DNA of 61,650 bases from Thermodesulfobacteriota bacterium (GTDB taxonomy: Bacteria; Desulfobacterota; Desulfobacteria; Desulfobacterales; JAUWMJ01), in the NCBI GenBank assembly GCA_034189135.1, contig JAXHVO010000098.1, positions 1 to 61,650 of the forward strand, in the 5' to 3' direction. Both the position numbers and the translations under genes were made by a program. The stretch's first letter is position 1; each line of letters opens with the position of its first letter. Shown in pieces: positions 18,344 through 59,555 of the stretch. The notes beneath the pieces were generated by a model that worked only from the letters and a program-made list of their open reading frames with translations, ran no database searches and was not told where the DNA came from.

Positions 18344-19501
18344 ATGGAAAAAAAAATATTGCTTGTAGATGATGAAGAAGGCATCAGAAAGGTTCTTGGT
18401 ATCACCCTATCCGATTCCGGATATCGGGTATTTCTGGCAGAAAATGGCCAGGAAGCTTTCCGTATTTTCAAAACCGAATCTCCCCCCATTGTCATGACCG
18501 ATATAAAAATGCCGGGAATGGACGGTATAGAACTGCTTAAGAATATCAAACGGCTAAACCCAGACACTGAAGTCATCATGATTACCGGTCACGGAGATAT
18601 GGATCTTGCGATCACCAGTCTGAAGCATAAGGCAACCGATTTTATCACTAAACCGATCAATGATGATATTATGGAAATTGCCCTTAAAAAAGCCCATGAT
18701 AATATCATTGTCAGAAAGCAATTAAGAGAGTACACGCAAAACCTCGAAGCTCTCCTACATGAAAAGTCGGCTTTGCAGGACCGCCTGTCATCTTTGGGTC
18801 TCAGAATAAGTTCCATTTCCCACGGCATAAAAGGCATGTTGACCGGCCTGGATGGGGGGATGTATCTTCTGGACTCGGGTATTGCAAAAAACGATCAGGA
18901 CCAGCTCAAAGAGGGCTGGGGGATTGTAAAGCAGATGGTTGATCGTATAAGGAAGATGGTTCTGGACATTCTTTTTTATGCCAAAGAACGGGAGCTGAAG
19001 ACTGAAAAGGTTGATGTATTAAGCTTTACCAGGGATGTGGCTTCGATGGTTGAACCAAAAATAAAAGAAAAACAGATTGAATTTGTACAAAATTTTGAAA
19101 AATCACTCGGTGAGTTTGAGATAGACCCGGGTTTTGTTAGGTCAGCCATTATAAATATCCTGGAAAACGCTATAGATGCCTGCATAAAACAGTCATCAAA
19201 AAATTATCATAAAATTGTTTTTGAAGTAAAACAGGATAAAAATGATATCAGGTTTGATGTGCATGATACCGGAATTGGTATGGACAGTGACACCAAGAAA
19301 AAGGTGTTTGATCTTTTTTTCTCATCCAAGGGAAGTCAGGGAACGGGGTTGGGTCTTTTTATCGCAAGCAAGGTCATCGGTCAGCATGGAGGATCAATAG
19401 AAGTGGCTTCCACACCCGGCCACGGATCACATTTTTGCATTAGACTGCCGAAAAAATTGCCGGAATTTATAAAAACAGCGTCTTCAAAGCAAGCTAAATG
19501 A
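18344..19501 (+). CDS. Soluble receiver-histidine kinase hybrid
   Basis: A 385-residue cytoplasmic protein. The receiver (1-120) has Asp53 in TDIKMPGMDG and Lys103 in FITKPIND. A short coiled coil (120-150) leads to a dimerisation/phospho-acceptor region with His160 (SSISHGIKGMLTG, an H-box variant). HATPase follows with NAIDA, DTGIGM and GTGLGLF. There is no sensor domain and no membrane segment, so its input is probably phosphorylation of its own receiver. It lies between the tmc and hdr sets, which makes it a candidate to act on either the lone receiver or the receiver inside HdrA (inference). Confidence 0.88.
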   Translation: MEKKILLVDDEEGIRKVLGITLSDSGYRVFLAENGQEAFRIFKTESPPIVMTDIKMPGMDGIELLKNIKRLNPDTEVIMITGHGDMDLAITSLKHKATDFITKPINDDIMEIALKKAHDNIIVRKQLREYTQNLEALLHEKSALQDRLSSLGLRISSISHGIKGMLTGLDGGMYLLDSGIAKNDQDQLKEGWGIVKQMVDRIRKMVLDILFYAKERELKTEKVDVLSFTRDVASMVEPKIKEKQIEFVQNFEKSLGEFEIDPGFVRSAIINILENAIDACIKQSSKNYHKIVFEVKQDKNDIRFDVHDTGIGMDSDTKKKVFDLFFSSKGSQGTGLGLFIASKVIGQHGGSIEVASTPGHGSHFCIRLPKKLPEFIKTASSKQAK

Positions 19502-19529
19502 GGAGTCGGAGAGTTATTCAATCTCTGTT

Positions 19530-20092
19530 CTGTCCGCCTGGGGAATAGGCTAATCGCCCGTTGCAATCCTTAACATTATTATTGGGGGACCGACCTACGG
19601 CAGCTATCTCGCTTCGATTATACTGTTTCTCATAAATATATTCCGTTTTAAACGATGAAAAACTCGTATATAAGAAATCGTAAAGAAAGAACTCACGGTC
19701 TCTATTATAATTAATTTCAGTATGACAACGACTACCATAAATTAACCATATTGCACTTAAGTTCTTTCTTAACGACTTCTATAGTGGTTGTCAAAAAAAC
19801 GTTCCGTTATCGAAACGTTTTTTTCTACAACCACTTATACCGCAATTCCATATTTCGGAACATATTTATGGCAAGCGGTATAATACACTCAGACAGTTTC
19901 CTCATTTAAAACGGAACATATTTATGAGAATTACTATAGATTTCAACCAGCCCCAGTAGACAGATCCCCACGGCGGCAATGATCGTCTCTGCCTGTATGA
20001 GTTTTATGCAATGGATAGGGGGCGGCTGCGGGGCATTGTAATCATTTGTTAAGGATTGCAACGGGCGATTAGCCTATTCCCCAGGCGGACAG
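19530..20092. repeat. 563-bp palindromic element with perfect 46-bp terminal inverted repeats (MITE-like)
   Basis: The left arm (19530-19575, beginning CTGTCCGCCTGGGGAATAGG) is an exact reverse complement of the right arm (20047-20092, ending CCTATTCCCCAGGCGGACAG). Nested inside is a 24-bp inverted pair with one mismatch (19629-19652 and 19905-19928), and weaker symmetry in between. The centre has further hairpins. One is GTGGTTGT...ACAACCAC (19785-19835), enclosing AAAAAAACGTT/AACGTTTTTTT. Another is the ATACCGC/GCGGTAT pair (19838-19881). There is no coding potential and no obvious target-site duplication. A nonautonomous transposon (MITE) is the simplest reading; a structured RNA or a protein-binding palindrome is possible. 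Confidence 0.75.
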
Positions 20093-20133
20093 ATGAAAAT
20101 CAGTAAAGCACTGACAGCTCACCAACAAGGCCT

Positions 20134-20152
20134 TTGGGGAGAAACCCCCCAA
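20134..20152 (-). terminator. Hairpin downstream of hdrB
   Basis: TTGGGG pairs with CCCCAA around a 7-base loop, 24 bases beyond the hdrB stop on the minus strand. No U-tract follows in that direction, so it may stabilise the 3' end or assist termination rather than being a classical intrinsic terminator. Confidence 0.35.
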
Positions 20153-20175
20153 CCCAATAGATAAGTAGTACCTGG

Positions 20176-21048
20176 TCACATTTCTTTAAGTTTTTTCCGA
20201 AAGTCTTTGGTAATGGCCAGGTTCAGATCAAGTCGCAGATCCTTTTCCGATAGACCAATGGCAAGCCCCAGCAATTGTGGAAGATAAAGAATTGTTATGG
20301 ACAGAGTTTCCTGATACTTCTTGGAAATCTTCTGTTGATAAGCCTCTAGGTTCATTTGACACATGGGGCAAACCGTAACAATGACATCCGCCCCCACGGC
20401 ACCATGTAAAATGGCATGAACGAGCTCCAGTCCGACCTCCATCTTGGTGTTCATGTGAGAGGCGCCGCAGCATTTTCCCCCCATCTCCCATGGATAAACC
20501 TTAGCACCTATTGCCTCAATGAGTGGTTCCATAGACTTGGGTTTTTCAGGATCATCAAAAACAGCATACGGTCGGAGACACTGGCATCCATAGTACGGTG
20601 CGATTTTAAGATCGGTCAAAGGCTTCTTTACCCGGTTCTTTATTTTACCCGGTCCTATATCTTGAGAAACAACGTCAAGAAGATGCCGGACGCGCAGTTT
20701 GCCCTGCAGACTGATTTTTTCCTCCTCCAGCACATCATTTAACTTTTGAAGAAGATCCGCATCCTTTTTGATTTTTTGTTCCACTTTTTTCAGGTTCAGG
20801 TAACAGGCACTGCATGGAACCATAATATCATTCGATCCGTCCATCTTTTCTGCCAGGGCTAAATTACGGGCCGGAAGTGCCAAAGATAAAAGATGACTGG
20901 TAGCCTCGGCTGCACTGGCTCCACAGCATGTCCAGTCGTCTATTTCCACAAGTTCTGCATCCACCGCATGCATGAAGGCTTGAGTAGAAATGTTATATTC
21001 AAGGGCCGTTCCCTCCAGAGAACAACCCGGATAGTATTGGTATTTCAT
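20176..21048 (-). CDS. hdrB: HdrB-like subunit (CCG domain protein)
   Basis: A 290-residue soluble protein with two CCG motifs, C-X31/39-CC-X35/36-C-X2-C. The first runs from YPGCS through WTCCGAS to PCSACYLN. The second runs from YYGCQCLRP through GKCCGAS to CPMCQMN. In methanogen HdrB each CCG binds a noncubane [4Fe-4S] cluster that reduces a heterodisulfide. In sulfate reducers the physiological acceptor is not established (DsrC trisulfide and related thiols have been proposed). It ends the six-gene operon and overlaps hdrC by 4 bp (ATGA). Confidence 0.93.
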   Translation of the reverse strand: MKYQYYPGCSLEGTALEYNISTQAFMHAVDAELVEIDDWTCCGASAAEATSHLLSLALPARNLALAEKMDGSNDIMVPCSACYLNLKKVEQKIKKDADLLQKLNDVLEEEKISLQGKLRVRHLLDVVSQDIGPGKIKNRVKKPLTDLKIAPYYGCQCLRPYAVFDDPEKPKSMEPLIEAIGAKVYPWEMGGKCCGASHMNTKMEVGLELVHAILHGAVGADVIVTVCPMCQMNLEAYQQKISKKYQETLSITILYLPQLLGLAIGLSEKDLRLDLNLAITKDFRKKLKEM

Positions 21049-58010: not shown

Positions 58011-59186
58011 TCAGTGGTTAAACACCAGCATAAGCTGTGCACCGTTACCCGAGAAACTGTTGGCCGTTGTCGTATCCTGGGCTATGGAAGCCCGGTCCGG
58101 GTTCCGAAACGCACTCACATGTATTTGCCAATGATCATAGGAGCGTCGCCAGGTAAGAAATCCCGACCAGTCATCGTTTTCCCAGTCGTAGTATACAATG
58201 GCCGATACGGTATCGAGCAAGCTCAGAGGATAGTCGGCTGACAGGGCTGAAATGGATTGACTGTCCCCGGAGCCGAACAGGTTTTTCGTTTCAACGCGCA
58301 TAAATTGCTCCAAGAGAAGATGCGGTCCATTGCCGATATCAAAGGTGTAATCCGTGCCCACCGTGAGAAGCTTTTGGTAGCGAGACTCCGGTACGTCCAG
58401 ATCCTGACGGGTCACCGTGCCCTCCAGCCACAGGCCGACACCGACATCCCATTTCCCATCAATTCCGATACGCTGTTCCGAAAAGTTACCCTGATCAGGA
58501 TACTGCGCGCCAAAACCGGTGCCTTCCGGGTTTACCCGTCGATGGTGATAAGAAAGTCCCATTTCGCCCTCGGGAGCCGGTACCTGTACACGTCCGCCAA
58601 ACTCAATTTCCCGTTCATAGCTGGGTAACCTTTCCCAGCCTTTGAGGTCATCGTTTCCGTATAGCCCCCACACCCAGATATTGGCGTTGTTCAGAAAATA
58701 GTACCGACCCAGCAGGCCGTATACGCCATCGGTCAACTGCAGGGGATCCCTCGGGTCAATGCTGTCGAACCACATTAAAGGCCTTAGCAGGGTAGCAGAA
58801 CCAAAGTTGATTTTCTGCAGGCCTGCACGCAGTTCGTATTGCGATGAAGATAAGCGTACCCACAGACGATAGGAATCCATCTCCGAGTCGCTTTCAATAT
58901 GGTCCCAGTCATCGTCGTACCAGCTGAACCACTGGGCTTTGACTGCCGCCTCTGCGCTTATTTCGTAGGTTTTCCAAAATTGTCTGGCAAAAGACAGTTC
59001 GGGTATGTACCGCAAACCGACTTGCGCATCGTCGCGCTTTACCGTTCCCCATGCAGACATCTGGCCCGAAAGATCCACTGTCTGGGCGTGAGTGGATACA
59101 CACCAGGTGATAAGTAAGGCGCTTAACAGCAGAATTTCACGAAATCTGACCAGGCAAGCCTCCAATCTGCAGACTTTTAAAAACAT
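58011..59186 (-). CDS. Outer-membrane beta-barrel protein of the Lol-like operon
   Basis: A 391-residue protein with an N-terminal signal (REILLLSALLITWCVSTHAQ). The rest is rich in alternating aromatic and polar strands with terminal aromatic F-N-H, as in beta-barrels (LRAGLQKINFGSATLLRPL, WVWGLYGNDD, LSYHHRRVNPEGTG, AIVYYDWENDDWSGFLTWRR, AQLMLVFNH). It leads the five-gene set and starts 33 bp before the ATPase gene. It might receive the exported lipid or protein at the outer membrane (inference). The start is poorly supported: no clear ribosome site. Confidence 0.75.
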   Translation of the reverse strand: MFLKVCRLEACLVRFREILLLSALLITWCVSTHAQTVDLSGQMSAWGTVKRDDAQVGLRYIPELSFARQFWKTYEISAEAAVKAQWFSWYDDDWDHIESDSEMDSYRLWVRLSSSQYELRAGLQKINFGSATLLRPLMWFDSIDPRDPLQLTDGVYGLLGRYYFLNNANIWVWGLYGNDDLKGWERLPSYEREIEFGGRVQVPAPEGEMGLSYHHRRVNPEGTGFGAQYPDQGNFSEQRIGIDGKWDVGVGLWLEGTVTRQDLDVPESRYQKLLTVGTDYTFDIGNGPHLLLEQFMRVETKNLFGSGDSQSISALSADYPLSLLDTVSAIVYYDWENDDWSGFLTWRRSYDHWQIHVSAFRNPDRASIAQDTTTANSFSGNGAQLMLVFNH

Positions 59187-59555
59187 GCTGAATGCTACTC
59201 ATGCTTATAGCATGGCTCAGCATGCACCCTCTTCCTGAAAATCTAAAATCATGCACTTTGCTTTATACACAATTTTTATATAAAGTTCCATTTAATAATT
59301 TTATGGTCAAAATACTGTATTCTCTTATTTTGGAATGAATTTGAATCATGATGTAACTACCAAGTTTTCACGACTGCATTAATTATTCTAATGTTTTCAA
59401 GGTGTAAAACCATCTAAAAATAAAAATATGACTTGTCCAGTACAAGATTTAATGGTACTTAACTATAAACCATATTACGATGAAGTGGCTTAATCTGCTC
59501 GTTATGTCATTAACGCAAATCATCATCTATGAATGGAAATAAATAGGAGTCTTTT
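59187..59555. other. AT-rich divergent region
   Basis: 369 bp between the leftward barrel gene and the rightward gene at 59556. It is very AT-rich (for example 59262-59310 and 59420-59450) and has no gene. It probably holds promoters in both directions. I see no clear -24/-12 or operator pair. Confidence 0.4.

Follow-up and report, generated by a model that had tools for sequence, protein, structure and literature searches.

The window analysed here is a stretch of 61,650 nucleotides in which a block lying between two gene clusters is approached from both sides by converging genes: a receiver/histidine-kinase gene on the forward strand and an open reading frame with an HdrB-like CCG domain on the reverse strand, which ends at position 20176. 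The block carries perfect inverted arms of 47 bp, 100% complementary; a random sequence of 61,650 bases would be expected to hold about 1e-19 such pairs. Inside them lies a second inverted pair of 42 nt at 86% (19619-19660 and 19897-19938), which is the terminal repeat of an element that we call B, and the centre holds extra inverted repeats, among them a T-rich hairpin at 19793-19824. The frame list offers no convincing gene inside the block, only one spurious 61-aa frame overlapping its left edge, and a search of the block against Rfam gave zero matches. A scan for terminators and promoters found none, and we therefore claim no terminator role for the central element, C. A preliminary description had given the block perfect outer arms of 46 bp, a nested 24-bp pair with one mismatch, further central hairpins including a T-rich one, no genes, and flanking units that converge on it. 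All of this was borne out, the outer arms being slightly longer and the 24-bp pair being contained in the real 42-nt pair.

When the block is compared with its own genome (4.63 Mb in 140 contigs), separate parts of it match separate sets of loci, which makes it a mosaic. Identity to these loci is 94-100% for the central part of about 100 bp, 85-94% for the part that surrounds it and 72-85% for the outer part, and each of them occurs alone. The block consists of three non-autonomous miniature transposons (MITEs) nested by age, with C inserted in B and B inserted in A (Table 1). The preliminary description had taken the arms as the bounds of a single element at 19530-20092; aligning copies of A with their flanks showed that A extends beyond those coordinates on both sides and is enclosed by target duplications. 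A MITE had been one of the alternatives proposed, and the multicopy nature of the block agrees with a MITE in kind; however, there are three MITEs and not one, and the arms are internal, not terminal.

Table 1. Features of the block and of the gene at its left edge (positions in the window)
Feature	Position	Strand	Remarks
Receiver/histidine-kinase gene	18344-19501	+	385 aa
A left target duplication, 8 bp, AGCTAAAT	19492-19499	+	6/8 identical to right copy
Element A (MITE)	19500-20158	+	341 bp without B and C; TIR GAGGAGTCGGAGAGTTATTC / degenerate right end
A left internal arm, 47 bp, subterminal	19529-19575	+	
B left TA duplication	19619-19620	+	empty site in A copies L031 and L035
Element B (MITE-like)	19621-19936	+	215 bp without C; terminal repeats TACTGTTTCTCATAAATATATTCCG... 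/ TAGTAATTCTCATAAATATGTTCCG...
C left TA duplication	19780-19781	+	empty site in B copies L003, L005, L006, L008 and L012
Element C	19782-19880	+	99 bp; ends TAGTGGTTGTC... / TACCGCTTGCC...
C right TA duplication	19881-19882	+	
B right TA duplication	19937-19938	+	
A right internal arm	20047-20093	-	perfect complement of left arm
A right target duplication, 8 bp, AGATAAGT	20159-20166	+	6/8 identical to left copy

Element A is short and non-coding, has terminal inverted repeats (TIRs) and duplicates a fixed 8 bp of its target, as MITEs do. Its TIR, GAGGGGTCGGGGAGTTTTTC, has 84 matches in the own genome with up to 3 mismatches, compared with 5 for the reversed pattern, and copies of A are multicopy and dispersed there and are also found in a second genome, G001. 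The TIR pair was present in 48 of the 62 loci examined, with ends mostly 338-349 bp apart, and the 14 loci lacking it were dropped; the window copy, once its insert is subtracted, comes close to the family's typical length. Of the 48 own-genus loci, 15 are flanked at the standard boundary by an exact 8-bp duplication, with the consensus ANNTANNT, in which position 4 is T in 15/15 and position 5 is A in 14/15. Since the duplication of the window copy is imperfect and its right end degenerate, the exact right boundary of this copy rests on the alignment. A similarity search of A against plasmids gave no match.

The place where A lies also bears on the neighbouring gene. The stop codon of the kinase gene, TGA, is made of the last T of the left duplication and the first GA of A. 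When the flanks are joined with either copy of the duplication, the frame ends in TAG and still encodes 385 aa; the insertion of A has swapped the stop codon from TAG to TGA and perhaps one residue, and has kept the length. This insertion history would imply a pre-insertion site reading CAAGCTAAATAG or CAAGATAAGTAG. An empty site for A was sought through a kinase orthologue in G001 and in a third genome, G002, and the best matches there were distant. Thus, the check proposed in the preliminary description, namely multiple copies together with empty sites, gave many copies in the genome and empty sites for B and C, and did not yield that of A.

For the two inner elements the history can be read directly, as each of the three elements has copies elsewhere in the own genome that stand apart from the other two. 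The A copies without B read GATTAGATTT or AATTAGATTT at the site that B occupies in the window, and five B copies without C read CTAATACAC (TTCTAATACAC) at the site of C. These uninterrupted copies show that each of the two insertions duplicated a TA. The order of insertion is matched by the divergence of the families: within the own genome, 28 copies of A (compared over arms and interior) are on average 79% identical to one another, 14 copies of B 91% and 20 copies of C 96%, the oldest layer thus lying outermost and the youngest innermost. Element A landed at the last codons of the histidine-kinase gene, followed by B in A and then by C in B. It had been suggested that the perfect arms betray recent movement. 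The arms' identity is no such sign, because A was the first of the three to arrive, its family shows the greatest divergence and the duplication of the window copy has decayed to 6/8.

Element C consists of two adjacent hairpins, the T-rich one first, and shares with B the terminal core CATAAATATGTTCCG. In two other copies of A (L032 on contig C130 and L033 on C107) C occupies one shared TA; these A copies are 78% identical to each other and the C copies within them 97%, from which we conclude that C probably hit the same TA of A twice. At another locus (L002, 1444-1664) a B copy has a right end resembling that of C (TATGGCAAACAGTATA) and is a possible B/C hybrid. C is also abundant in two genomes from other families of the order, G026 and G029 (loci L078, L079, L087, L088, L095 and L096), with dozens of copies among the matches listed, at 83-89% identity.

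What needs explaining is that A decays as a whole while its arms stay perfect. We aligned the arms of 46 copies, leaving out L032 and L033, which have C inside. Over the arm columns, bases form Watson-Crick pairs in 95.2% of comparisons when both arms come from one copy and in 70.8% when they come from different copies. None of 10,000 permutations exceeded 77.9%, and a control that gave each left arm the right arm of its nearest relative scored 88.8%. Partners have been swapped repeatedly: at columns 47 and 257, for example, G-C is found in 22 copies, T-A in 17, A-T in 2 and C-G in 2. The remaining mismatches on the fixed alignment columns are G-T in 25 cases and A-C in 22 (binomial p 0.77). 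When the arms were found individually in each copy, leaving out L116, a copy with a deletion whose arms were not found, 61 of 1928 positions were mismatched, with 16 G-T and 21 A-C (binomial p 0.51). We take the fixed-column test as the main one, since arms picked by best score favour matching, and a per-position count at fixed offset (509/1892) was discarded because indels at the tip put copies out of register. As G-T and A-C are equal within error, exchange at the level of DNA is the simplest account of the matching, and the pairing seems to be kept up in the DNA and not in an RNA. The perfection of the arms is better explained by homogenisation between the two arms within each copy.

The segment between the arms has a second peculiarity. 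When the interior of every copy is turned the same way, the left and right spacers between arm and element end come to about 33 and 69 in one set of copies and to about 69 and 33 in another, and BLAST of the window A against copies of the G001 type finds, in some of them, tips and interior matching in opposite directions. In the own genome 16 copies have the 33/69 form and 14 the 69/33 form, L116, with its undelimited arms, being counted among the latter; G001 has 10 and 6, and G002 1 and 0. On a tree built from arms plus interior of 44 of the 47 copies, window included (L116, L121 and L158 excluded), orientation changes at least 13 times, and shuffled labels give a mean of 14.5. Orientation is thus distributed almost as randomly as if the labels had been shuffled; this agrees with frequent flipping and also means that the count of changes depends on a weakly resolved tree; the well-supported branches alone force 6 changes, and the sister copies L151 and L152 (support 100/99) lie in opposite orientations. 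Duplications of at least 7/8, taking the best of nine boundary shifts, are kept by 18 of 26 copies of one form and 11 of 20 of the other, which argues against crossover between copies at different sites. Comparing the flanks of the fetched loci for A sites common to the own genome and G001 gave only other repeats. No site was seen in both orientations, and inversion in place is inferred from the tree.

One process would be enough to homogenise the arms and to invert the segment between them, and the likeliest agent would be replication template switching, or recombination, between the arms of A. Homogenisation together with spacer inversion, the pair of traits expected of inverted repeats that undergo template switching, is what A displays; homologous recombination predicts both as well, so the two are inseparable here. 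No cellular function would be needed for the block. We therefore regard it as highly probable that the block is an age-ordered nest of A, B and C in which the arms of A have been homogenised copy by copy and its interior inverted through template switching or recombination.

Other explanations have to be weighed against this one. The preliminary description had raised a structural RNA, and if A were a transcribed structured RNA or a regulatory hairpin, its arms would co-vary through selected RNA pairing. The arm covariation is indeed strong, and the predicted fold of the whole block is very stable on both strands (z about -18 and -20). However, selection on RNA should spare G-U pairs, yet G-T mismatches are about as frequent as A-C in either set of arms; no Rfam family matches, a flipped interior would alter any loop, and the copies carry target duplications and have invaded many sites. 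We consider such an RNA very unlikely. Even less likely is an origin of the arms in a hairpin misjoin, which had been named as the observation that would overturn the preliminary description. The genome is a draft in 140 contigs, so misjoins deserve a thought; however, the internal architecture is repeated in 48 loci of three genomes and the nested pieces join at exact TA duplications. As the architecture recurs in dozens of independent copies, we see no sign of a misjoin, and this explanation can practically be set aside.

The orientation data invite two further readings. In one, a dedicated enzyme, either the transposase of A or a site-specific recombinase, inverts the interior at the arms and makes A a switchable element. 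Near-equal numbers of the two isomers in the own genome and in G001, their near-random distribution on the tree and the fixed distances of the arms from the ends of A (33 and 69) are all compatible with such an enzyme. Nevertheless, the sequence of the arms varies along most of their length, A encodes no recombinase, and homology-based exchange explains the matching of the arms without further assumptions, which leaves the enzyme improbable in our judgement. In the other, orientation and matched arms were fixed when the element was copied, by hairpin-primed synthesis during amplification, and not in place. Palindromic elements can be copied through snap-back intermediates, which speaks for this idea; against it, the duplications around A indicate an ordinary insertion made by a transposase, and we think it rather unlikely.

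A would be moved by a transposase recognising GAGGGGTCGGGGAGT. Open frames around its ends were judged by reading and comparing them, and no autonomous partner was found between TIR pairs or downstream of unpaired TIRs in the stretches of the own genome, G001, G020 and G022. The 17-mer at the end of A occurs exactly in at least 120 public genome stretches, and the titles among the matches listed include Desulfobacterota, Omnitrophota, Sumerlaeota and others; in 120 of these stretches no transposase was recognised between ends up to 4 kb apart or beside unpaired ends, and viral contigs gave 0 matches to the end. Transposases of the IS1595 (PF12762), DDE_Tnp_1 (PF01609) and IS256 (PF00872) types were considered as the mover of A and rejected, as their loci, in five genomes, have no matching end pair. 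Since many assemblies break near A-type ends, the absence of a partner here is not an absence everywhere. In the public genomes the A-type end often lies 90-150 bp from a contig end (L207, L224, L226, L239, L255, L265 and others), as if assemblies broke inside a repeated element. An exact 8-bp duplication surrounds 40 of 70 end pairs, 121-439 bp in size, in the public stretches and those of G001, G020 and G022, Omnitrophota included. In G022 (L177-L194) the related end GAGGTGTCGGGGAGTTT delimits elements that lack genes, fall into two sizes (about 140-153 and 265-270 bp) and are flanked by 8-bp duplications.

B and C were probably moved by an IS630-type transposase. They resemble IS630/Tc1-mariner-type MITEs in their TA target duplication and short terminal repeats. 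The single DDE_3 (PF13358) transposase gene of the own genome lies on contig C130 at 58350-59372 (L159, 1402-2506; Pfam E 8e-37), and the 3' end of its locus, TA-TAGTATTTGTCAAAATAACGTTCCG, matches the left end of C at 24 of 28 bases, at that one end only. Unlike such MITEs, C is made of two adjacent hairpins with unequal ends. At E<=1e-60 the C130 transposase is found in 1 of 146 genomes of the order, namely the own one, and it is therefore a candidate partner of B and C only; G026 and G029 are full of C, yet lack it at the same threshold.

A fuller reading, to which we give an even chance, makes A an invertible MITE. The interior would flip again and again at its site between the arms of 44-47 bp, each flip or failed flip copying one arm onto the other; moreover, the end sequence of A, with the same ANNTANNT duplication, is used by gene-less elements of other sizes in both Desulfobacterota and Omnitrophota, and a widespread transposase would stand behind them. 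In the open-access literature searched we found no MITE with an invertible interior. By description only, A can be likened to Chunjie, a MITE of Geobacter uraniireducens: according to a review (PMC10969869) that element is likewise a few hundred bp long and non-coding, with TIRs and direct repeats, and has tens of copies, AT-rich targets and a neighbouring gene left intact. In contrast to Chunjie, A has an internal arm pair of 44-47 bp, an interior in two orientations and two further elements aboard. Both signatures of A are shared with template switching as portrayed for RNA stems (PMC8794818) and for yeast (PMC8604942), where arm homogenisation and spacer inversion between inverted repeats form a joint signature. 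The yeast spacer inversions concern a few bases, whereas in A the arms measure about 44 bp and the interior about 150 bp; moreover, unlike those systems, A is a family of mobile elements in bacteria and offers natural replicates by the dozen.

A nest of three MITEs is ordinary as such, and it is the internal arm pair of A that lifts the finding. Perfect inverted arms are easily read as recent movement or as selection on an RNA, and here they are most simply kept by exchange between the arms. This calls for caution, as covariation alone is insufficient to annotate hairpins as RNAs. The A end, which occurs together with its duplication in distant groups where no transposase was recognised with it, is a concrete target for searches. 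Finally, the A family offers natural data for tallying homogenisation and inversion copy by copy and, if A is indeed invertible, it would be a natural experiment on bacterial template switching or recombination, repeated at dozens of independent loci.
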